From: Leptobrachium leishanense
Taxonomy: Eukaryota; Chordata; Amphibia; Anura; Megophryidae
Direction: 5' to 3'
Length of the DNA: 64,000 bases
NCBI GenBank assembly: GCA_009667805.1
Contig: CM019067.1
Location: 158,367,049-158,431,048, forward strand
The notes beneath the pieces were generated by a model, which worked only from the letters and a program-made list of their open reading frames with translations, was not told where the DNA came from and ran no database searches. Shown here piece by piece: positions 8,549-63,310 of the stretch. Position 1 is the first letter of the stretch. Each line of letters opens with the position of its first letter. The position numbers and the translations under genes are program-made.

Positions 8549-10176
<1,628 letters not shown>

Positions 10177-20783: not shown

Positions 20784-20990
20784 TCTAAAAAGAAACATGC
20801 AAATCGAACTCTCTGTTTAATCCGTTTGACCATAGCGTATCTAGTCTATGGATCCATTTCTTTTCTTTTTGTTTTAACAGTTGTGTTCTATCCCCCCTCT
20901 CCTGAGTGTTGGGACTTGATCTACGACCTGAAAACGCAACTATGCTACGCTGTGGAAACAGTTCACGAAATGCTAGGCTACAGGTAACTC
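20784..20990 (-). pseudogene. PLE C-terminal coding remnant (end of GIY-YIG region)
   Basis: On the minus strand the frame reads LLKQKEKKWIHRLDTL, then W-S-N-G-L-N-R-E-F-D-L, and a stop at about 20784. This is the closing segment of Penelope-like element proteins, after the GIY-YIG endonuclease. The homologous end of the PLE at 45738 has the same FWI..TL.P.GLN pattern. The upstream GIY-YIG and RT parts are missing, cut by whatever was inserted from about 21050. The plus-strand open frame over the same bases is a shadow. Confidence 0.7.
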
Positions 20991-21345
20991 CAATCTTTTT
21001 GTTCTAATTGTAGATTTAGTAGATTTATGTTTGCTAATTCACTCCTTCACTGTAATGCCCCTAGCCGCCGGCGCCGTAAAAAGCCTAAATCCAGCGCCGC
21101 CTCATAGTGCTGAGACTCTCAGTCTTCTCAGGACTCTCCTCTGCAACACTCAGGTGTTGACTAATTCATCTGATGCTCCCTGCATAAAACCAAACCGCAC
21201 CCAAGTAACATTGCTTCTGCATTATCTTGGTGCATGCCAAGCTGACAGGGAGCTGCCTCTTGTTACTCCATCCATCCATATCCTAACTATTCTGTTTCCA
21301 CCAGCATTCCCTTCCTCTGTGCCTGTATTCTACAGGAGTCTCAGA

Positions 21346-21610
21346 ACTTGCCTGCCCTGCATCCCACAGACTCTCCAGGTGTCGCTGCCCTGCACGTCGC
21401 AGACTCTCCAGGTGTTGCTGCCCTGCACGTCGCAGACTCTCCAGGTGTCGCTGCCCTGCACGTCGCAGACTCTCCAGGTGTCGCTGCCCTGCACGTCGCA
21501 GACTCTCCAGGTGTCGCTGCCCTGCACGTCGCCAACTCTCCAGGTGTCGCTGCCCTGCATGTCGCAGGATCTCCAGTTGTCGCTGCCCTGCATTCCACAG
21601 AATCCGCTAC
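21346..21610. repeat. 33-bp minisatellite
   Basis: About eight tandem copies of a 33-bp unit beginning CTGCCCTGCACGTCGCAGA and ending CCAGGTGTCG. The unit is divisible by 3, so frames stay open. A degenerate continuation (CCCGCAGAATCCGCTGCC) runs to about 21790. Confidence 0.9.
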
Positions 21611-22035
21611 CTTGTATTCCACAGAAAATCTCAGAACCTGCCTGCCCTGCATCCCGCAGAATCCGCTGCCCGGTATCCTCCCGCAGAATCCGCTACCTTG
21701 TATTCCACAGAAAATCTCAGAACCTGCCTGCCCTGCATCCTGCAGAATCCGCTGCCCGGTATCCTCCTGCAGAATCTGCTACCCTCTATCCTGCAGAAAT
21801 CCCAAAGCCCGTTGCTCTGCATTGCCAAGATCCTTTACAGACCCAGGAACCTCTGCCTCCAGAAACACCCTGCCTCCATATATTTCTCTTTTGTTGTAGT
21901 TTAGTTTAGTATAGTTTAGTATTGTCCTATCTTGCCTTCAGTTAAAATTATTATTGTTTATTTAGTGTGATCCCTTCTATATTCATCTGTTGCCTTTTTA
22001 TGTTCTACAAGGTGGAAAGCCTGCCCAGAGGGCAG

Positions 22036-22278
22036 TCTATTGTGGATATACTGCCCCAGCTCATGGATATACTGCCCCAGCTCGTGGATATTGCCCAAGC
22101 ACGTGGATACTGCCCCAACTCGTGGATATTGCCCCAGCACGTGGATACTGCTCCAGCTCGTGGATACTGCCCCAGCACGTGGATACTGCCCCAGCTCGTG
22201 GATACTGCCCCAGCACGTGGATACTGCCCCAGCTCGTGGATACTGCCCCAGCACGTGGATACTGCCCCAGCTCATGGA
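22036..22278. repeat. 19-bp minisatellite
   Basis: About 12 tandem copies of the 19-bp unit GTGGATACTGCCCCAGCTC, alternating with a CAC variant. A 19-bp unit shifts frame each copy, so all three plus-strand frames stay open. A looser continuation with ATGGATAT runs to about 22375. Confidence 0.9.
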
Positions 22279-22495
22279 TATTTGGCCCTCACCTCTCATG
22301 GATATATGCCCCAGCTCATGGATATTTGCCCCCACCTCTCGGATATTTTCCCCCCACCTCTCATGGCTATATGCCCCCCAGCTCAGACCCCAGACCAGAC
22401 ATGGGGCCGCTGTTCGAATGCTCTATCGGCATTCGGACAGCCACCCCATGAGCTCCTCATACTTACCTTCCCGAGCGGCGAAGTGAAAGTTTCCC

Positions 22496-22800
22496 CGCTT
22501 CCGGTCGTTGAAGGACCCAAGCCGCGGTCACGTGACCGCGGCTTGGGTCCTTCAAAGAGCGGAAGCGAGGGAACTTTCCCTTCACCGCTCGGGGATGGAT
22601 GCGCGCGGCAGCCGGGTAGAGGCTGCGAGCGCAGCCTCTACCGGCTGCTGTGTGTATCTTGTAACCGCCATGGCGAGCGCACAGCCGGCTCGTGCCGCGG
22701 CGGTTGCATGCGCGCGCAACCAACCGCCGCTGGTTGCGCGCGCATGCGCAGAGTAAGGCTTGGCGATGGACACGCCAAGCCTTACTCAATTATATTATAG
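22496..22800. repeat. CpG-rich palindrome cluster
   Basis: It contains a 48-bp perfect palindrome (22508-22555), an 11-bp stem with 4-nt loop (GTAGAGGCTGC, at about 22615-22640), alternating GCGCGC near 22710-22745, and a 13-bp stem (GTAAGGCTTGGCG, about 22754-22786). No protein family is encoded. Confidence 0.75.
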
Positions 22801-28721: not shown

Positions 28722-30526
28722 GTGGCAGTCATCTACCGCCCACCGGGACCAACCTCCCAGTTCTTTGACCACTTTGCCACCTGGCTTTCTCACTTCCTGT
28801 CTTCTTGTCTTCCATGCCTAGTTCTCGGGGACTTCAACATTCCCATTGATGATCCTTCTGCCCCTGCTGCCTCCAAACTTCTTTCACTCACGTCCTCCCT
28901 TGGACTCACGCAATCCTCCCTCCTCCCTACCCACCGCGATGGTCACACTATTGACCTTATCTTTTCCAACCTCTGCTCCATTTCTGAGTTCAACTGTCGC
29001 CCTTTCCCCATCTCTGACCACCACCTTCTCTCTTTCAACCTATCTGGACTTCCTAAACACCCTGCTCCCCCACCCCGTACACACACTCGCAGAAATCTAC
29101 ATGCCGTGGATCCCCATCAATTCTCCAATCTACTTCACCACCTCCCTCACACCTCATCCTTCACCTGCCCTGATGCTGCCACTAATCACTACAACACTAC
29201 TCTTATCTCTGCTCTAGACACTCTTGCTCCTCTTCGACTTTGTAAGGCCCCACGCCGCCAGCTTCAGCCCTGGTACACCCTCCAGACTCGCTACCTGCAA
29301 AGATGCTCCCACACTGCAGAGCGTGCCTGGAGGAAATACCGCTCTGAAGCTGATTTTGTTCACTTCAAGTTTATTCTCTGGTCATACACCGCTGCCCTCC
29401 ACTTGGCCAAACAATCCTTCTTCTCATCTCTTATATCTATGCTGTCCTCTAACCCTAAACGGCTCTGGTCCACCTTCAACACCCTCCTCCATCCACTCGC
29501 ACCTCCCCCCTCAGCTGCCTTCAACGCTCAAGACCTGGCAGATTTCTTCCTTAGTAAAACTCTAACTATCAGAAGCGACATCCCAACACAAGATAGTTAT
29601 CTGCCACCTCCACTCCCAGAGGTCCCCTCTGCCACCCTCTGCCGCTTCCTCCCAGCCACTGAGGAGGAAGTCAATTCCTTATTGTCCTCCTCACATCTCA
29701 CCACGTGCCCGCTCGACCCCATTCCCTCACATCTAATTCCTCCCCTCTCCTCCTCCCTCACCCCTGCTCTCACACACATCTTCAACCTATCTCTCTCCAC
29801 CGGCTCCTTCCCATCCGCCTTCAAACATGCGCTAGTTACCCCTTTACTAAAGAAACCATCCCTCGATCCCAACTCTCCATCCAACTACCGTCCTGTATCC
29901 CTGCTTCCCTTCACATCAAAGCTCTTAGAAAAACTAGTCTTCAACCGCCTCTCCCTCTTCCTGTCATCCAATTCCCTACTTGACCCCCTGCAATCTGGCT
30001 TCCGTCCCCTACACTCAACTGAAACTGCCCTCACCAAAGTCACCAACGACCTCCTAACTGCTAAAAAACACGGCCACTATTCTATGCTCATCCTGCTTGA
30101 CCTCTCGGCTGCTTTTGACACTGTTGACCACCCCCTCCTTCTGCAGACCCTCAGCTCTCTTGGTCTCTGTGACACTGCACTCGCTTGGGTTGACTCCTAT
30201 TTATCCAACAGGTCCTTCTCTGTGTCCTTTGCTGGTAACTCTTCCTCTTCATTGCCTTTATCTGTTGGTGTACCTCAAGGCTCTGTCCTTGGTCCTCTGC
30301 TCTTTTCCATCTACACCTCCTCCCTGGGCAAAATCATCAACAGCTTTGGCTTTAATTACCACCTCTATGCTGATGACACTCAGATCTACCTCTCTACCCC
30401 TGATCTCTCTCCCCCTGTCCTTTCAAAAGTCAGTGACTGTTTATCTGGCATCTCCTCCTGGATGGCCTCGCACCACCTAAAGATCAACATGTCCAAGACT
30501 GAGCTCCTACTTATTCCTCCCTCTAA
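28722..30526 (+). pseudogene. L2 ORF2: endonuclease end and RT, open but interrupted
   Basis: About 600 codons are uninterrupted, and the frame is actually open from about 28600. In order: the end of an APE endonuclease ([32 protein letters not shown]), a linker, then the RT with [57 protein letters not shown] and YADDTQIYL. The frame then enters the Harbinger element and stops at 30554. The first half of the endonuclease is missing through 5' truncation. Lack of stops over 1.8 kb indicates a young insertion. Confidence 0.92.
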
Positions 30527-30850
30527 GGCTAGGGTCAGACTAGCGCAGTTTTAACGTGCGTTTAGCCGCACAAAATCACGGCCGTACTAGCAGCAAATGA
30601 CGTCCAATGCCGGGGAACATACGAAGTACGGCCGCACGAAAATTCGTCCGCGCAACGCAAGTGGCAAACGAACGCATTTTTTCGAGAACGTCAAACCGCT
30701 ACTACTGACGTACAGAGTGCGCTGCGGCTGCATAGCGGCGTGTTTGCGTGATTGGGAGACGTCAGACGCTGCACACGTCCGGCCAACATAACGTGCACAG
30801 ACCAAACACTTCCTGTCTTGTCTGGGGGTAGCTGCAAGTTGCGTTGGACA

Positions 30851-33266
30851 ATGGCTGGGACTGACATCGACGTGGAGAGGCTGATCAATGCAGTGGCAGA
30901 GCATCCCGAGCTGTGGGACACGGCCTGCGACAGCTACAAAGACCAGCAGAAGAAGGCCAGTGCATGGGTCACAGTGTCCAGGGTGGTGTACCCAGAGTAC
31001 GAGACGTGGTCTGATAAAGAGCAGAAGCTTCAGAGTGAGTAAATGATCATTTTATTGCATAGAATTCAATTGCATTGAACTTGAATGTAATATCAAACAA
31101 AATGGCATAACGAATTATCGTTGTCACTAAGGATGTGCGTTTCGGCTTTCAGAATTTCGGAATTAAACGACATTTTCACGATTCGTGTTTTCTGATGCGG
31201 GCGATTCCCAGATAATTTTTCGATCCGAAAATGTCAGATCCGAAATGTTTCCGAGCCGAAACAAAATATTGTACGAATATGCGATTGGACTTGAATTGTG
31301 TCAAATCGAAATTTATTGCTTTGAAACGAGAACAGACGTTGCGAAAAACGAGAAATTTACGAAATCACGAAAAGTAGATCCAACAAACGAGCAAAGTGAC
31401 ACAAAAAACAAAAAATGGTCCATATTCCGATGACATATCCCCGAAAAACGAGTCGAACCGAATCGAATCAAAACAGGGTTCGTTCGAAACGAGCCGAATC
31501 AAAAACTTTAAACATCCGAAAATTCGAACAGAAAAAATAATCGGTGCACAAGCCTAGGTGTCACATGTCAAATGATGTCCATCTGCCATGGCACCTGCCC
31601 TGCATTGCTAGTGAAATAATTAGACAGAGCATCGCGAAACCTGTTGGTGTGTCTATTCACAGGTATTATGTCATCGTTAGCATACTCATCCAGACCCGTT
31701 ACTGTGAGGGTATCCTCGAAATTAACCCCATCCCTTGCACGAACATAGTTATGTAGGATGCAACAGCATTTCACTATATCCACACAGAAATCCACATTTA
31801 CATCAAGTGGCCGATGAAAAATCCTCCACTTGTTGCTCAGTATGCCAAAGCTACACTCGACATACCGTCTCGCCCGCGACAGCCTGTAATTAAACACCCG
31901 CTTCTTCACAGTCAGATGTGTCCCCGAGTATGGCCGCAGGAGATGTGTGGATAAGCCGAATGCTTCATCACCCACAAAGGCATAGGGGACTGACACGTCG
32001 CTGCCAGGCAAAGGTGCGGGTCTGGGGATGTTCAGGTTCCCACCCTCAATCTCATTCCACAGTGTTGAGTTCCGAAACAGTGTTGAGTCCGAGTCCTTGC
32101 CGTATGATCCGACATCCACATACACAAAATTATAGTTGGCATCTGCCACTGCCAGTAGGCCAATTGAAAAATAATGTTTATAATTTTGATACAGTGAGCC
32201 ACTGTGCAGTGGCTTCACAATGCGGACATGTTTGCCGTCCACCGCTCCCAGGCAGTTGGGATAGTTCGCTCTCTCCCAGAATCCTGCTGCAATTGCCAGC
32301 CATGTCTCGCCTGTGGGTGTTGGCAAACATTGGTCCTTCATGGTTTCCCATATTGTTTGGCAGACCTTGCGGACGATCTCACCAGCTGTCGATCTGCCAA
32401 TGCGGAAGTTGTAATGCAGATCCTTCAAACTGCATCCACTAGCAAGATACCTAGAACATGAAAGAAGCTGTGTTATGATCACATCATATAAACCTAACCT
32501 TATGTCACTCTCATCATGTTTTGCAGCACATGAAGCAATCAATAAATGGCGCACGGTGAGGGACAATCATACCCGGGTCCTGAAAAAGGAGGCTGAAGCT
32601 GCTCGCTCTGGAGCTGGTGCAAAGAAGAGGCGCAGCTATTTGTATGCAGACCAACTGTCCTTCCTGAGGAAGAGCCAGGAGCCGCGCAAGACTGTGAGCA
32701 GTATTGACCGGCCATCCACCTCTAGCTCACAAGGGCAAGACCTGCAGCCCGCAGGATCTGGCAGCTGCCAGGTGGAGGTCGAGCAGGGTGGTGCGGAGTC
32801 CCAGGTGGAGGATGTGGAGTCCCAACAGGTGCCGGGTACAGCACCCACAGACAGCACCAGTACGGCTCCCAGGAGGAAGAAGCCACCATCAGCTGATGTC
32901 GAGCAGGCCATGGTCGCATTCATGGACGCGCACCATACACATCCACGCTGCATGGTCGCTGATTCCGAGGACATGTCCTTTTTCAATTCATGTCTCTCCC
33001 TGCTCAACATAATGACCCCAGCGCAGAAGCTGGATTATCGCCGCCGAAGCCTGGACCTGATACATGAGATACTGTCCCATCCACAACAGGCACCTGTATA
33101 TCACGGTGTCGTGCCACAATACCCCCATGGTTATTCCCACCACTGCCAGGCGTTGCCTGCCCGCCCACCCATGTCCCCTGTTGCTGGGCCACCCCGGCCA
33201 GAGTACCACCGCAGCCATATGCATGGTCCTCATGCCCCAGATGCTCCTCGGTATCATACCATGTGA
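30851..33266 (+). CDS. Harbinger MADF-BESS (Myb/SANT-like) protein, two exons
   Basis: Exon 1 is 30851-31034 (ATG in context ACAATGG) and exon 2 is 32527-33266. The donor is CAGA|GTGAGT and the acceptor TTTTGCAG|CACATG. The join is in frame and gives about 307 residues. Residues about 8-100 form a MADF domain: LINAVAEHPELWD, then SYKDQQKKASAW, W-S-D-K-E-Q-K, KWRTVRDNHTRVLKK and a YADQLSFLRK close. A Ser/Pro-rich linker follows. Near residues 225-265 a BESS-like motif reads SFFNSCLSLLNIMTPAQKLD. In the Harbinger superfamily this Myb/MADF partner binds element DNA and helps bring transposase into the nucleus; that role is inferred here. No stop or frameshift is seen. The splice model is predicted, not proven. 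Confidence 0.85.
31051..31056 (-). promoter_or_regulatory. Candidate polyadenylation signal of the transposase
   Basis: TTTATT on the plus strand is AATAAA on the coding strand. Without the hAT insertion it would lie about 80 nt past the transposase stop codon; now it is about 510 nt away. It falls just after the MADF exon 1 donor. Confidence 0.45.
31128..31556. mobile_element. hAT MITE inside the Harbinger element
   Basis: Its ends are TAAGGATGTGC and GCACAAGCCTA. The flanking 8-mers are GTTGTCAC (31120-31127) and GGTGTCAC (31557-31564), one mismatch. The interior is rich in TTCG/CGAA. It lies within the MADF intron and starts 4 bp beyond the transposase stop codon on that strand. Confidence 0.8.
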
Positions 33267-33909
33267 GGTGTATCGTCTGTTCGTTTATGTTTGTCACAGT
33301 TTATTCATGTTGTTCTACTATTTTTATTTTATTACCTTCATTGGACATGCAATAATATATGTGTTTAATATGTTATTGTTATCTTCTGTCATATTATTTC
33401 GGGACTAAAATATTATTTGTTTCACATCGTTGTCAGTGTCATTACTCTTTCGTTACGTGTTCTGCAAGGTGATGCATGCGTGTGTGTGTGGGCATATAAC
33501 TACTGACCTACAATAGAGCCTCTGCACACCGAGCACATGTCTGATGACTGGCAGCGATGTCATGAATGCAGGTGTTTGATAGTACTTACCGCAAAGTGAG
33601 GACCAGCATCTCCTCCGGTGGTATGGCAGCCCTCATGTTGGTGTCCCTCTTGGTCAGCGGCTCACGCGCCTTCATCAACAGTTCATCAAAGGTGTGGATG
33701 GACATCCGCAGGTAGTTGAAGAACTTCACGGGGTCCCTCTCTCGCAGTGGCCTGTACAGTGTCACAAAGTGGCCATGCGTGTGTCTGGCAGTGTTGATTG
33801 GATGGACCCATGTTCGCCGTTGTCTTTTCTTCTTCAGGTACAGGTATCCCAGTGCAGCAAAAAGAAACACTTGGACTGCATCCATCTTGGAAAATGCCAC
33901 CATTCCCAA
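31568..33909 (-). CDS. HARBI1-like DDE transposase, two exons
   Basis: On the minus strand, exon 1 is 33909-33590 and exon 2 is 32450-31568. Donor GCG|GTAAGT and acceptor TTCTAG|GTATC join in frame to give about 400 residues. The join restores the family motif LTLRYLASG.SLKDLHYNFRIG, which supports the model. The N-terminus has a DELL-type helical region and EEMLVLTLR. The catalytic core shows LGAVDGKHV (Asp about 178), YVDVGSYGKDSDS (about 217-229), GDEAFGLSTHLLRPY (about 267-281) and RRYVECSFGILSNKWRIF (Glu about 305). The C-terminus has CCILHNYV. All acidic positions are present and no disruption is seen. It would excise and insert the element and its MITEs at TWA sites. The nearest minus-strand AATAAA is at 31051-31056. 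Confidence 0.9.
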
Positions 33910-34122
33910 AATGCCTTTTTATACCCCTTCCCTTTTATTTGATTCATTCTGCAATTGATTTGGTTGATCATATCTCTCTTCTTCCAGCTCCGTGAAACAA
34001 AACGTACGAAAATGCGCATCGTATGACCGCTTTCGCGCATTCCGTTAAAAAATACGTTCGTTCGTTCGACCGCACTTTTTCATGTTCGCGGCGAAAAATG
34101 CGTTCGTCTGACCCTAGCCTAA

Positions 34123-38157: not shown

Positions 38158-38785
38158 ACTTCAATCTAGTAGAGGTAACATCACTGCTCTGCATGGAGAG
38201 AGCCTGTGGAGACATGGGTTTGATCCCAGCGAGCAACCTCTCCAGTAAGGCTGGGGTCAGACTAACGCATTTTTAACGTGCGTTTGGGTGCACTTAATCA
38301 CGGCCGCAGTAGCAGCAAATGACGCGCAATGATGGCCAATATACGAAGTACGGCTGCACAAAAGTCCGGCCGTGCCACGCAAGTGGAAAATGAACGCATT
38401 TTTTCGAGAATGCAGAACCGCTAGTACTGATGTACAGAGTGCGCTGTGTCCGCTAGCGGCGAGTGTGCATGATTAGGAGATGTCAGATGCTGCTCATGTC
38501 CGGCCAACATAACGTCCAGACACCCAAAGTTTCCTGGTTTGCATCCGTAAAAAATCACGCACAAAAATGCGCATCGTCTGACCGTTTTCGCGCATTCCAT
38601 GAAAAAATACGGCAATGCGTTCGGACGCACTTTTTGAAGGTCACTGTGAAAAATGCGTTAGTCTGACCCTAGCCTTAGTGTCCTTGGGCAAGACACCTAA
38701 CGGTACATACTCGCCACCCAGGACATACTTGAAAACGAGAGAAATCTCAATGTATCCTTCCTGGTAAAATCCTTTCTCAAAAAAA
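38158..38785 (+). mobile_element. tRNA-headed SINE, split by a Harbinger MITE
   Basis: The head (38158-38248) has the B-box-like GGGTTTGATCCC (38216-38227). The tail (38678-38785) runs from TGTCCTTGGGCAAGACACC to the LINE-type end CTCAATGTATCCTTCCTGG and AAAAAAATAAATAAAT. The uninterrupted SINE at 23524 reads AGTAAGTGTCC across the break. Confidence 0.75.
38249..38674. mobile_element. Harbinger MITE 1
   Basis: The 426-bp element has ends GGCTGGGGTCAGAC and GTCTGACCCTAGCC, with TAA left and TTA right (one-base difference; TWA type). Its first about 290 bp match the left end of the 30527 element and its last about 130 bp match the right end. No coding region remains. Confidence 0.92.
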
Positions 38786-42277: not shown

Positions 42278-42713
42278 GGCTAGGGTCAGACTGAGGCAGT
42301 GCGAACGCGCGTTCTGGCGCACATAATCACGGCCGCACTAGCAGCAGATGACGGGCAATGACAGCCAATATACGAAGTACGGTCGCACAAAAGTCCGGCC
42401 GCGCAACGCAAGTGGAAAATGAACGCATTTTTTCGAGAACGTTAAACCGCTGGTACTGACGTACAGAGTGCGCTGCGTCCGCATAGCAGCGTGTGTGCGT
42501 GATTAGGAGATGTCAGACGCTGCTAATGTCCGGCCAACATAACGTTCAAACAGCCGGATTTCCCTAGACTTCTTTTCACCCCATTGTCATGAAATACGTC
42601 CAGAATTGCGCATCGTCTGACCACTTAAGCGTATTCCGTGAAAAAATGCGTGCGCACGCATCGACGTACATTTTGACGGTGGCCGCAGAAAATGCGCTCA
42701 TCTGTCCCTAGCC
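42278..42713. mobile_element. Harbinger MITE 2
   Basis: The 436-bp element has left end GGCTAGGGTCAGAC, right end CTGTCCCTAGCC, and TTA on both sides (42275-42277, 42714-42716). Its body matches the 38249 copy in the same orientation. Confidence 0.92.
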
Positions 42714-45737: not shown

Positions 45738-48356
45738 TTAGATGAATGAGGTAAAAGTGAAACCTTCGTTTAAACCATCAGGAGAGAGGGTACCGGCCGT
45801 ATATATCCAAAAGCTCTCTCTACAACGTAAATACAGGTTGTAGTTCTCTTTTCTTCGTTGTGGCTTAACTAGTTCAATACCACAGAAGCGCATCCTGGAG
45901 GTATCGCCGCTTTGGCCTTCGCGTACATGCCTAGCGATCGGTGTGTCCTGGCCTCGCACGGAGAGAAAATGCTCTCTTATCCTGTGTTTAAAGGGCCGAA
46001 ATGTTTTCCCCACATATTTTTTACCGCAACCACAAACAAGCATATAGACTAGTCCCGTGGAGTTACAGTTGAAAAATGATTTAGACTCAAATGATAGCTG
46101 TTCTTTGCTATCCTTAAAGGACCTTGAGTTTTTAAGTATAGATGCATAGCTCTTACACTTCCCACATGCATATGTACCTTTCAGGTTAGTTTGAAGCCAG
46201 TTGGTACGTGTAGGTTTCTTATGATAGTGACTAGGTACCAGCATATTTTCCAAGCTATTACAATGTCGAAAGGTGATCGAAGCATGTTCGCCAATGGCAT
46301 CCTTCAAGTGTGGATCGAGTATGAGAAGGGGCCAATATCTATCAAGGATTGTTCTAACATCGTGCCAGCCTTCATCGTAATTCCCAATACAGCGAGTGAG
46401 GGCTGCATCCTTTTTAACCTGATCCGTCAGGCGCATATCTCTAGTCAGACCGGAGGCTTTTTGATATGCCCTTTTTAAGACTCTATTTGGATAGCCCTTG
46501 GATCTAAAGTTTTGTTTCAGGGTCCATGCTTTCGACCTGAACTCCTCCTCCGTTGAGCAGATTCGGCGTAAACGCAAGTACTGTCCATAGGGTATACCTA
46601 TTTTGAGGGGCACCGATGGTAACTAGACCAGTCAAGTAAATTATTGGCGGCCGTCTGCTTTTTGAATAGTGTTGTCGATATTACATGATTAGGGCTAGCT
46701 GATATTGCCACATACTTTTTTGTATATCGCAGGTAAAGCGTAAGTTAAGCTGGTTACAGTTAGTGAACTCAACAAATTTTCTAAAGCTCTCTGCTGACGA
46801 ACGCCATATAATGAAAACGTCGTCGATATAGCTCAGCCAACAGACAATATTATCAAAGAATGGATTAGTATCTGGATTCAGAATTATCATTTTTTCCCAT
46901 ATTCCTAAGTAGATGTTGGCATAGGAGGGGCACATGTAGTGCCCATGTTACTGCCCTGGATTTGATGGTAAAACTTATTGTTGAATAGAAAATAATTATG
47001 GGTGAGTATAAATTCAAGTAAAGAGAAATCAATTGTGTCCTGTGAAAAAATCTCGGAAGATTCCAATGCAGACTTAACGGCCGCTATACCTGCCACATGC
47101 GGTATTGAACTGTACAATGCCTCTACGTCTAGGCTGCATAGCCTCATGTCATTTGTCAATTTACAGTCTTTTACAAGTTGTAGGAGTTGTTTGGTATCCC
47201 TCAAATATGATGGTTGTTTTACCACTATCCTCTGTAGTAAATGATCGATAAACTGGCTACAGTTCTGGGTCAGATTGTCTACCCCTGAAACGATAGGGCG
47301 TCCTGGAGGCTGATCTCTATTTTTGTGGATTTTAGGAAGTGCATAGAAAGTTGATAGTCGTGGTTGTTTAGTATTTAAAAAATCAAACTTGTCTCGAGAA
47401 ATCACCCCAGTTCTAGACCTCTTTCCAGAATCTTAGTGAGCTCATTGAGAAATTTATATGTTGGATCTCGAGGGAGGGTGGCATATATATCGCCATCGTC
47501 CAGAAGTCGTAACACCATATTTTCATATTGTTGGTTCGTCATCAACACAATGTTTCCCCCTTTGTCTGAGGGTTTAATGACTACTCCCTGTAGATCCTTA
47601 AATTGTTTAAGGGCTAACCTCTCACTTCTCGTGAGGTTATCACGATCTTTGTGATTTAATGTTTTTTTATTCAATTTCTCAATGTCACCACAGACTAATC
47701 TGCAAAAGAGATCAAGATTCTCATAGTTTTTTATGAAGGGAGTGAATGTTGACCTATTTTTTAAGCTTGAAAGGGAAGACGTCATTACTGAATTATCACT
47801 CTCCTCGAGTAACTGAACTAATGTCTCCAAACATTCAAACTCCCTGAGATTTAGTCCATGATTCTTTGCTTATTTTTCTTTTTTAATCATATGATACTTT
47901 CTTAATGCCAGTTTCCTTGTAAAAAGATGAATATCTTTTACCCAGTTTAAAGTATTGAGGTTAGACTTGGGTACAAAGGAGAGACCCTTATTGAAAATAC
48001 GTAATTGATTGTCTGTAAGGGCTACATTAGTAAGGTGGATGATTCTAAGGTCCGTGCCTAATACCTTCTCCTTCTGTACCTCCTTCCTCCTTTTTGGCCC
48101 CTTTTTTCCCGTTCCATTGATCTTATTGGAGGGGGGCCTCCTCTTCTAAAAAAGGAGACGAAAAGGAAACCCTTCTTCTAAGGATACCTCTAGGGAGAGT
48201 GTTACTATCAGTAGTGTCATTCTCAGGCTCTGATGAATCATACTCACTAGTAGTCGCTACATTTTCTATTTTATTCTTTTGGATGATCTTTCTGGGTCCA
48301 GGATTTTGTCTTTCTATCACCCTTGGGCATGTACATTGTTGATAGTTTATTGTCAA
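45738..48356 (-). pseudogene. PLE protein: N-terminal region, RT, GIY-YIG endonuclease
   Basis: The minus-strand pieces are 48356-48123, about 48110-47870 (LSFVPKSNLNTLNWVKDIH), 47830-47402, 47405-46905, 46935-46681 and 46613-45738. In order: a charged N-terminus, a KPSDKGGNIVLM motif, RT with STFYALPKIHK, GRPIVSG, CSLDVEALYSSIPH, QGSNMGTTCAPP and the catalytic WLSYIDDVFIIW. Then the C-terminal GIY-YIG endonuclease: LVYMLVCGCGKKYVGKT, with RIREHF, closing TLSPDGLNEGFTF. About five frameshifts break it. PLEs use the GIY-YIG nuclease and RT for target-primed copying. All motifs are recognisable; the element is inactive as it stands. Confidence 0.9.
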
Positions 48357-58124: not shown

Positions 58125-59737
<1,613 letters not shown>

Positions 59738-60544: not shown

Positions 60545-60970
60545 GGCTAGGGTCAAACGAAAGCATTTTTACACGCGAACGTATAAAAGTGCGTCCGAAC
60601 GCATTGATGTATTTTTTCACGGAATATGCGAAAACGGTCATACGATGCGCATTTTCGTGCGTGATTTTTTACGAATCCAAACCAGGAAACTTTTTGCGTC
60701 TGGACGTTATGTTGGCCGGACATGAGCAGGGTCTGACGTCTCCAAATCACACACACACACCGCTAGCGGGCGCAGCGCACTCTGTACGTCCGTACTAGAG
60801 GTTCTGCTTTCTCGAAAAAATGCGTTCATTTTCCACTTGCGTTGCGCGGCCGGACTTTCGTGCGACCGTACTTCGTATATTGGCTGTCATTGCCCGTCAT
60901 TTGCTGCTAGTACGGCCGTGATTAAGTGCGCCAGAACGCACGTTAAAAATGCGCTGGTCTGACCCTAGCC
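60545..60970. mobile_element. Harbinger MITE 3 (inverted)
   Basis: The 426-bp element begins GGCTAGGGTCAAAC, ends GGTCTGACCCTAGCC and is flanked by TTA on both sides (60542-60544, 60971-60973). It carries the same end pieces as the 38249 and 42278 copies, in the opposite orientation. Confidence 0.92.
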
Positions 60971-61373: not shown

Positions 61374-61740
61374 TGTATTATTTACTGCCGCTAAAACGGG
61401 GACGCTAAGGTGGAAAATCTGCACCTGCAGCTTTTCCCTTAGCGCCCCTGTTTTAGCTCCATATTATGAAGCAGGTGCTGATTCAGCAGCCTGCCCCATA
61501 ATGCAACGCTAAGCCCTTGGGTACTCGAGGCAGCGCTAACGCGCCACCCCAAGTATCCCCTCCTGGAGTCCATAGTGCTCCATGAAGGATTGTGCTGCTG
61601 GGTCAGCTGATCTGCAGGATCTCACCTTTCGCGAGATCTCGCAGGTCCGCCACGTGATCGCGGAGGGAGACTGGGGAAATTTTTTCTTTGCCACTGGGAT
61701 TTTCAGTACCCTGTCTCCAAGCTAGGTCGTGTCCGCGCGA
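61374..61740. repeat. GC-rich repeat upstream of HARBI1-like remnant
   Basis: The sequence begins GGGCTGTATTATTTACTGCC and shares CTAAAACGGG-, GCGCTAACGCG- and TCGCGAGATCTCGC-type motifs with the insert at 7236-7851. It may be the end of the element whose transposase follows. Confidence 0.45.
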
Positions 61741-61754
61741 AAGGCTTCCCCATC

Positions 61755-63310
61755 ATGCTACACTGCTTCCTTCTATCTATGCGGGACAATTTCCACCACT
61801 ATATTGGATACCCTACCACCCCTGAGGGCTGGCCTAGTGTGAAACTGAGGTTTTATGCATTTGGTGGGTTTCCCCAATGCCCTGGGGCAATAGATTGTAC
61901 TCAAATAGAGAACTTTAGGCCCTGGAAGGATCCTGTGGTTTATATTAATCGCAAGCACTTCATGCACATCATGCACCTACTTGCAGTGTTCCCTGGTAGT
62001 GCCCATGACTCATATATTCTGCAGAACTCCTTGGGCTCTATTACATTCTTCGCGCAAACGTTAATGAGTGTAATACAACGTTCAGCGCAAAGGGTTTTGC
62101 CCCTCGCATTAATGTGTTTTTGCACAATGTCTGCGCAAAAAAATGAGCGTTAACGTCTACCACGGGTGAATCTGCGCGAACGCTGCACGAGCGTATTGTA
62201 CTGCGCACATCCTATACTTAGCATTGTGAGCGCAAACTTTTTTGTGTGCTGGTACGCGGATGGTATTACAATCTATGCGCAAAATTTAACGCACAGCGTT
62301 TGCGCACGTAATTTTAACGTCCTTGAAAAGCTGGTGATAACGCCAAATCTGAACGTCCTGGCTGAACCCAAATACAGCAGCCCAAAAAAAAAATACAGCA
62401 AAAATACAGTTACACATTCTATGCATACACAAACAATAAATTTGAGAAGTTGTGCGTGGTTTTTTTTTTATGCAGCATATATGCGCAGATTGACTTTGGC
62501 AGGCGCAAAAACTTAACGTGAGACAATTAAGATTCTTAATTCTGATTGGCTGAATCGCGTGAAAAAACAGTCCACACACCGATTTCTGCGCGCAACATTA
62601 ATGCGCGTGCGGTTTTGCGTGTCTTTTTTAGGCACGTTATTTTTTGACGGATAAAATAATGCGCGAGGATTGTAATACCAGCGTTAATTTACGCGCATAA
62701 ACGTTTACCGCTTTGCGCAAAAATTCACGCGTTTACCGTGCATTTTTACGAGAAGACTGTAATAGAGCCCCTTATTGGCACGTGACTTCCAGGGCAGGAT
62801 GTTACCTGAAGGATTGCTTTTCAGTGGGTACACATATCTTTTGACACATATCTTAATTGTATAGCCTAATCTACCAGAATATTACAGTGTTTTATGTACC
62901 ATGTACTAGGTGATTCAGGATACCTTCTGAGGCCGACGATGACCCCCATTAGAATTCCTGAAGGACCGGATCAGGAGGCCTACAACACTGCACACCACAG
63001 TTCCAGTAGTGTGATCAAGAGGACCTTTGGGCTATTGAAAATGAGATGTTGATGTCTGGATAGTTCTGGCAGTGCCCTGCAATACCAGCTCCCAAAAGCT
63101 GCCTTAATTGTAATGGCGTGTGCCATGCTGCACAAAATGCCTATAGATAATGGCACCCCACTGAACTTACAGCCTGATCTCGATATGGCCCCTAACAAGG
63201 TCCCACTAGTGCCAACAGATGATGCAAAGACGTGGGCACAGATGCCAGGCAGTGCATGGTCCACCAACCTTTCGCAAGTTAGGTGCAAAAGCAGATGTCT
63301 CCTTTACTAT
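61755..63310 (+). pseudogene. Second HARBI1-like transposase remnant, split by a MITE
   Basis: 61755-62033 reads GYPTTPEGW, then FGGFPQCPGAIDCTQI (first Asp block of Harbinger DDE nucleases), YINRKHFMHIM, and FPGSAHDSYILQNS (second Asp block). A MITE then intervenes (62033-62770). From about 62905 the frame resumes with GDSGYLLRP-type sequence, MTPIRIPEGPDQEAYN, SSVIKRTFGLLKMRC (Glu block, now Lys-Arg) and MACAMLHKMP near 63110-63140. An acidic tail (LQPDLDMAPNK) follows. It is from a different Harbinger lineage than the 30527 element, with several stops and a degraded third catalytic block. Nuclease function is lost. Confidence 0.8.
62033..62770. mobile_element. GCGCAAA-rich MITE, copy 3
   Basis: The ends GGGCTCTATTAC and GTAATAGAGCCC are perfect inverted copies, with CTT on both sides (62030-62032, 62771-62773). 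The interior shares TATACTTAGCATTGTGAGCG with 11690 and its complement with 40715. It interrupts the HARBI1-like gene between LQNSLG and the next block. Confidence 0.9.

Follow-up and report, generated by a model that had tools for sequence, protein, structure and literature searches.

Interlocked transposase and MADF genes predicted on opposite strands of a PIF/Harbinger transposon in the toad Leptobrachium leishanense

How can a single transposon hold two spliced genes on opposite strands, each with its last exon within the intron of the other, and why would such a layout be kept? This question is raised by a stretch of 64,000 nucleotides of the Leptobrachium leishanense genome (assembly GCA_009667805.1, contig CM019067.1, positions 158,367,049 to 158,431,048 of the forward strand; hereafter the window), in which positions 30527-34119 correspond to a complete PIF/Harbinger transposon of 3593 bp, by its sequence of the autonomous cut-and-paste type. 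The element would encode a DDE transposase (gene T, minus strand) and a partner protein with a MADF domain (gene M, plus strand), with their exons arranged along the plus strand in the order M1(+), T2(-), M2(+), T1(-). From the sequence, we are highly confident of the identity of the element as a Harbinger and of this interlocked gene anatomy, and the overall explanation that we consider very probable is that of an autonomous PIF/Harbinger whose M and T genes are interlocked in an old and compact packing. Loci and proteins are designated below by numbers preceded by L and P.

The element is bounded by terminal inverted repeats that are perfect over 14 bp and reach 27 nt at 89% identity once the bordering A/T positions are included. 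The left repeat, GGCTAGGGTCAGAC, is located at 30527-30540 on the plus strand with TAA outside it at 30524-30526, and the right one, its exact reverse complement, at 34106-34119 on the minus strand with TAA at 34120-34122. When up to two mismatches are allowed this 14-mer occurs eight times in the window, where 0.18 occurrences would be expected; the six beyond the element's own two are the termini of three derivatives of about 430 bp, described below. The host sequence is the open reading frame (ORF) of a long interspersed nuclear element (LINE) reverse transcriptase (RVT_1, 7e-39), whose frame is restored across the site when the flanks are joined with a single TAA, and the window contains another LINE copy, 96% identical, that has no interruption at the equivalent place and reads CAA there. 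The combination of a DDE_Tnp_4-type transposase, a MADF second gene, terminal inverted repeats and a 3-bp TWA duplication (TAA/TAA) places the element among the PIF/Harbingers. The right-end inverted repeat recurs within the left end at 30657-30681 (25 nt, 84%), possibly as a binding repeat.

The MADF gene comprises exon 1 (M1, 30851-31034) and exon 2 (M2, 32527-33266) on the plus strand, separated by a phase 1 intron (31035-32526) with a GTGAGT donor. The spliced M product has 307 amino acids with a terminal stop only, and it matches the Pfam profile MADF_DNA_bdg over positions 1-84 of 84 (2.6e-13), a match that spans the splice. Searches with the MADF protein returned just two proteins, both from the same toad and both database gene predictions. 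The first, P0122, is the MADF protein of a second family (72% identity to M of the window) and shows an identical junction (KLQ/THE); the other, P0121, uses the same M2 acceptor but joins it to unrelated upstream exons.

The transposase gene is located on the minus strand, with exon 1 (T1) at 33590-33903, a phase 2 intron with a GTAAGT donor at 32451-33589, and exon 2 (T2), which bears the DDE domain, at 31568-32450. The predicted protein has 398 amino acids from the first ATG (33903) and 392 from a start codon at 33885-33883; the latter start appears likelier because 12 of 14 aligned sequences begin there and because a candidate transposase promoter, TATAAAAA, identical in the 40 copies of the element described below, is found at 33923-33916 (minus strand). 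A TATA-like match is present in two of the four relatives inspected (L059 and L061) and not in L051 and L058. The transposase matches DDE_Tnp_4 of Pfam (6.1e-32), and the catalytic triad, assigned by position in the 14-sequence alignment, includes a nearly invariant D176 and the invariant D266 and E303. The UniRef protein P0001 of L. leishanense is spliced at the same place as the predicted transposase, from which it departs at a single residue of 398. At its other end the transposase message probably terminates at the edge of M1, because the likely poly(A) signal, an AATAAA at 31056-31051 (minus strand) found in all 40 copies, is just inside the M intron; AATAAA or ATTAAA is located 13-28 bp from the end of M1 in 12 of 13 relatives, with L060 as the exception. 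The 120 proteins listed include 25 ORFs without an organism name, 14 of which pass from unrelated residues directly into homology at the R of the R-Y-L/F motif, as the end of an unspliced intron would, which indicates that the T intron is old. Three others read through the T intron site and eight begin further downstream.

The acceptors of the two genes point away from each other in a double splice-acceptor module at 32451-32526, with the T acceptor on the minus strand and the M acceptor on the plus strand, each preceded by a pyrimidine tract. TCATAAC (32478-32472, minus) and CCTAACC (32493-32499, plus) are candidate branch points by the general branch-point consensus. The predicted transcription units would extend roughly from 33890 to 31035 for T and from 30850 to beyond 33266 for M, giving a large overlap. 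A preliminary description of this DNA had already placed T2 inside the M intron and M2 inside the T intron, with about 76 bp between the facing exon boundaries, and had described flanking TAA triplets, ends that match perfectly over 14 bp and two spliced genes without internal stops. All its coordinates were correct on re-examination, the spacing is exactly 76 bp, both junctions are supported by sequence, and the Harbinger identity and intactness that it proposed agree with the Pfam matches, the perfect ends, the TAA flanks and the open frames. Its claim that the exons never overlap stands for the coding exons and has to be relaxed for the mRNAs, which might touch by a few bases near M1 because the likely transposase poly(A) signal is approximately 17 bp from the M donor.

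Searching the 3.54-Gb genome of L. leishanense we found at least 39 further full-length copies (L010-L048), 98.97-99.64% identical to the window element; this copy number is a lower bound, given that only 40 of 12,542 first-look candidates were scored. Both introns keep their GT and AG dinucleotides in all 40 copies (window included), and the GTGAGT and GTAAGT hexamers, together with the final 12 bases of each acceptor, are identical in every one of them. The reading frame is open in 31 of the 40 copies for M, in 34 for T and in 27 for both; relative to the 927-nt form present in 32 copies, M of the window lacks one codon, an in-frame difference. The window also holds an uninterrupted paralog of the L025 insertion site (98% identity), and by its near-identical copies and empty sites the family has been recently active. 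The interlock withstood the comparison with the 39 other copies, which were inspected for a longer consensus or a disrupted frame, and the near-identical copies and empty site suggested by the preliminary description were recovered, as copies at about 99% identity and as a LINE frame continuous across the joined flanks.

Variants were analyzed in 39 copies, without L048, whose T exon 1 carries an insertion. Sites with variants in at least two copies are rarer in exons (23 among 2103 bases) than in noncoding sequence (38 among 1490 bases; p=0.0014). The nonsynonymous to synonymous counts among shared variants were 4/5 for M and 4/8 for T, against 35/7 and 34/23 among singletons with stops included; the contrast gave p=0.024 for M, p=0.12 for T, which alone is not significant, and p=0.011 when pooled, in all cases with small numbers. 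The shared variants thus lean towards synonymous changes, which fits a filtering, during passage through transposition, for function of the proteins that M and T are predicted to encode.

Relatives of the element were located by searching this genome with transposase sequences. T2 is found beside M2 in 60 of 60 loci (40 + 8 + 6 + 6) and the full order M1-T2-M2-T1 in 53 (40 + 7 + 5 + 1); at the other seven, an exon fell outside the available sequence, was not detected or was not looked for, and no locus had a different order. Copies within a family are not independent, and by divergence the loci fall into about eight groups. In the P0010 family M1, T2 and M2 follow the same order at 8/8 loci and T1 is present in seven, L056 having none in the available stretch; identity to the window element is 71% for T2, 43-44% for M1 and 29-60% for M2 over the aligned parts. 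Loci L057-L062, with T2 identities of 69 to 92%, display M1-T2-M2 in 6/6 and T1 in 5/6 (not found in L057). In the Rana-like family L063-L068, where T2 identity drops to 48-50%, M2 adjoins T2 in 6/6 loci and M1 was recognized by motif in 4/6 (not found in L065 and L067); in L063, the sole locus of this family searched for T1, two T1 pieces occupy the expected place inside the inverted ends, and the spliced M product matches the MADF profile over positions 1-84 across the splice (8.6e-17). By tblastn the acceptors are 75-83 bp apart in 12 of 13 relatives (L049 was not measurable); direct counting gave 79 bp for L051, and the spacing is 60 bp in L063. The gap between M1 and T2 is 82-94 bp in five of the 13 relatives (L057-L059, L061 and L062).

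The ratio of nonsynonymous to synonymous substitution rates (dN/dS) against the window, where dS could be estimated, was 0.08-0.37 for T and 0.12-0.57 for M. For T2 of L051, L060 and L062 dS was saturated, implying that the layout is older than that divergence. The predicted interlock is not peculiar to the copy in the window and is found also across diverged families.

By analogy with other Harbingers, the MADF protein would bind the element ends and escort the transposase, which would cut at the TWA flanks and insert the element elsewhere, and the same kind of protein pair would mobilize derivatives of the miniature inverted-repeat transposable element (MITE) type. We propose that the layout would be an old compact packing, kept since the introns serve as useful space, and that splicing would leave the coding parts of the two mRNAs practically free of complementarity even though the transcription units mostly overlap. 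The interlock would also tend to hold both required genes together, because a large internal deletion would in most cases ruin both. Packing and non-complementary messages are, as the reason for the layout, a tentative suggestion that we place a little short of probable.

Several observations weigh against the overall explanation. Splicing is deduced from sequence evidence and database protein predictions, the DNA comparisons are all within one genome, and two spliced-junction searches of that genome returned no spliced retrocopy in either case. With the junctions known by sequence, the absence of retrocopies would fit a splice model that is wrong for one gene, for instance if M were two unrelated ORFs; we consider such an error very improbable, since the MADF match crosses the splice both in the window and in L063, the donor and acceptor signals are invariant in 40/40 copies and the junction of P0122 is identical. 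AATAAA and ATTAAA are absent between M2 and T1 in the window and in L058, L059, L061 and L062, with weaker signals only after M2 in the window (AATAAT at 33351), and one or the other is present there in the P0010-family copies and L060. Among solved structures none was homologous to the transposase at an expectation value (E) of 0.1, and a Foldseek search with the predicted model of P0001 (mean predicted local distance difference test score of 76) gave a best E of 0.06, which is not significant, the matches shown being mostly DDE integrases. No constraint is visible in the singleton variants of M. Stops in M2 of L057, L058, L060 and L061 reveal decayed copies, so that the layout outlives function in individual copies. 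Compactness is not universal either, as the M1-T2 gap reaches 526 bp in L060 and, in seven P0010-family copies, 1049-1093 bp.

These wide gaps, present in 8 of the 13 relatives measured, imply that tight spacing is not required at that position, and they favor the view that the interlock is a frozen accident, which arose once and persists without benefit as no simple rearrangement undoes it. The lack of any examined locus with another order would fit a single origin, and the family was not halted by the 429-bp nested insertion that its M intron carries; however, the acceptors remain 60-83 bp apart despite the divergence of the spacer sequence, and loss of the T intron appears possible, considering the 3 of 25 unnamed ORFs without it. 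An accident of this kind is possible, and we lean against it. The interlock might instead be a regulatory device, in line with the suggestion of the preliminary description that overlapping antisense pre-mRNAs could couple or limit expression; such pre-mRNAs, or colliding polymerases, would couple or restrain the two genes and limit transposition. This is in agreement with the large overlap predicted for the T and M transcription units and with a layout kept down to 48-50% identity in transposase exon 2, but conservation of the layout is expected equally from packing or from history, and the short acceptor spacer differs in sequence between families, so no shared antisense motif is evident; we regard a regulatory role as unlikely. 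Quite unlikely is an ancient selected architecture of this Harbinger branch, in which two obligately cooperating genes could both be expressed only if their pre-mRNAs, mutually antisense for the most part, were both spliced.

We found no description of interlocked Harbinger genes in the open-access literature searched; Repbase and subscription papers were outside its scope, and an earlier description is possible. In PIF/Harbingers both proteins are required, the Myb-like partner bringing the transposase to the nucleus and binding the ends (PMC9179366), and a model in which the transposase cuts the TWA flanks in a staggered manner has been put forward (PMC4561436). The vertebrate elements of the teleost survey resemble the toad element in their two genes, DDE transposase, Myb/SANT-type partner, terminal inverted repeats and 3-bp flanking repeats, whereas the toad element pairs its transposase with a MADF-type protein and interlocks the two spliced genes, which are on opposite strands; none of the words 'opposite', 'orientation', 'antisense' or 'MADF' appears in the main text of that survey (PMC9179366). 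The same protein pair, a PIF transposase and a MADF protein, is reported for insect PIF/Harbingers and domesticated pairs, with two-exon transposases in BPLG1 and BPLG2, in a main text where 'overlap' and 'opposite' do not occur (PMC9710019). Rice Ping/Pong and mPing share the PIF/Harbinger chemistry, the 3-bp flanks and MITEs moved by autonomous elements, but in the sections available their proteins are named ORF1 and TPase, not MADF, and interlocking is unmentioned (PMC4561436, PMC2836001). Medicago PIF/Harbingers also have two genes, with transposase introns given in a table; their gene order varies between families, orf1 being upstream or downstream of the transposase and, in the portion consulted, not interlocked (PMC2213677). 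Harbinger-Snek of sea kraits is alike in its transposase and Myb-like protein, recent expansion and short non-autonomous variants, and differs in that multi-copy variants with one of the two genes are reported for it (PMC8437027). Overlapping antisense gene pairs of hosts (e.g. PMC8493703) show a similar opposite-strand overlap, between host genes and not between the two genes of one transposon.

The nested insertion mentioned above (31128-31556, 429 bp) is located in the M intron just downstream of the T stop, and its near-identical 8-bp repeats, GTTGTCAC and GGTGTCAC, suggest that it is hAT-like. It is found in 40/40 copies, with 430 bp in the other 39, and is absent from L057, L058 and L059, which indicates that the lineage tolerated the insertion and amplified with it. 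The three short derivatives in the window are located at 38249-38674 (426 bp, plus strand, flanks TAA/TTA), 42278-42713 (436 bp, plus strand, TTA/TTA) and 60545-60970 (426 bp, minus strand, TTA/TTA), all within 30 kb of the element. They retain about 289 bp of the left end and 131 bp of the right end and, with the same ends, no genes and TWA flanks, correspond to Tourist-like MITEs; given that they are just 77-83% identical to the ends of the element, a sister family may be their source. The paired-end MITE pattern has 31,675 matches in the genome, and the reversed control has none. The extra sequence in transposase exon 1 of L048 resembles a MITE in its 80% match to the family's left end; this insertion broke the copy.

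The flanks of the 40 young copies all read T-N-A; the middle base differs between left and right in 18 of them (13 TAA/TTA and 5 TTA/TAA), and the outer T and A never do. The excess of mismatches over decay has a p of about 2e-20 at an assumed mismatch rate of 2%, left and right are unassociated (p=0.52), and decay at about 1% per site cannot explain the disagreement. Among the first 50 of the 31,675 MITE pattern matches 30 have agreeing flanks and 20 do not, the sides being associated (p=0.034); over the whole set TTA/TTA occurs 10,120 times, TAA/TAA 10,430 and TAA/TTA 6,448, the other 4,677 being TTA/TAA plus any with C or G, unsplit. Since the MITEs are older, mutation contributes to their flank disagreement. 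For L026 the site in a relative's sequence reads TTA (four alignments shown, 88% identity) and its own left flank reads TAA. We infer that the element may insert with a carried TWA overhang whose mispaired middle base is repaired either way. These flanks are natural, whereas the TAA/TTA and TTA/TAA flanks in the available part of the rice study belong to artificial constructs (PMC4561436). Insertion between T and A with the element contributing its own end bases was also considered, and paralogous uninterrupted sites with the full T-N-A triplet (L021, L025, L026, L031, L038, L043, L044 and L047) argue against it; the other spanning alignments are not clear (L010 TAG, L037 TGT or gap, L039 TTT, L045 CAA and window CAA).

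Regarding the wider distribution of the transposase, the proteins of an aphid (P0012, 65%) and a termite (P0015, 66%) are nearer to the element than are the Rana (52%) and Xenopus (about 50%) proteins, which may reflect old lineages or horizontal transfer. Scanning viral contigs with the transposase alignment gave 15 stretches, none of them confirmed, and among 16 stretches in prokaryote contigs one relative was confirmed (L001), a single-exon transposase on a 3.5-kb contig with no partner recognized by eye in its ORF list, probably a eukaryotic contamination and hence uninformative. Elsewhere in the window, inspection by eye suggested another, diverged Harbinger-type transposase relic (61611-62153), a Penelope-type retroelement with a GIY-YIG-like part (45738-47869, minus strand), Tc1/mariner-like transposase ORFs (8970-9602 and 58658-59521) and a minisatellite-like array of long repetitive ORFs open in several frames (20977-22800).

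In its proteins and ends the element looks like an ordinary Harbinger; its anatomy looks unusual, and is common to families with synonymous sites saturated against the window. It would represent a natural case of interdependent genes that are antisense before splicing and have non-overlapping coding exons, and thereby a test bed for the control of transposition by antisense transcription and splicing, with an intact recent family available for comparison with a very large MITE load. If an ancient selected architecture were true, splicing would act as a built-in switch between silencing through double-stranded RNA from unspliced transcripts and expression from non-complementary mRNAs.

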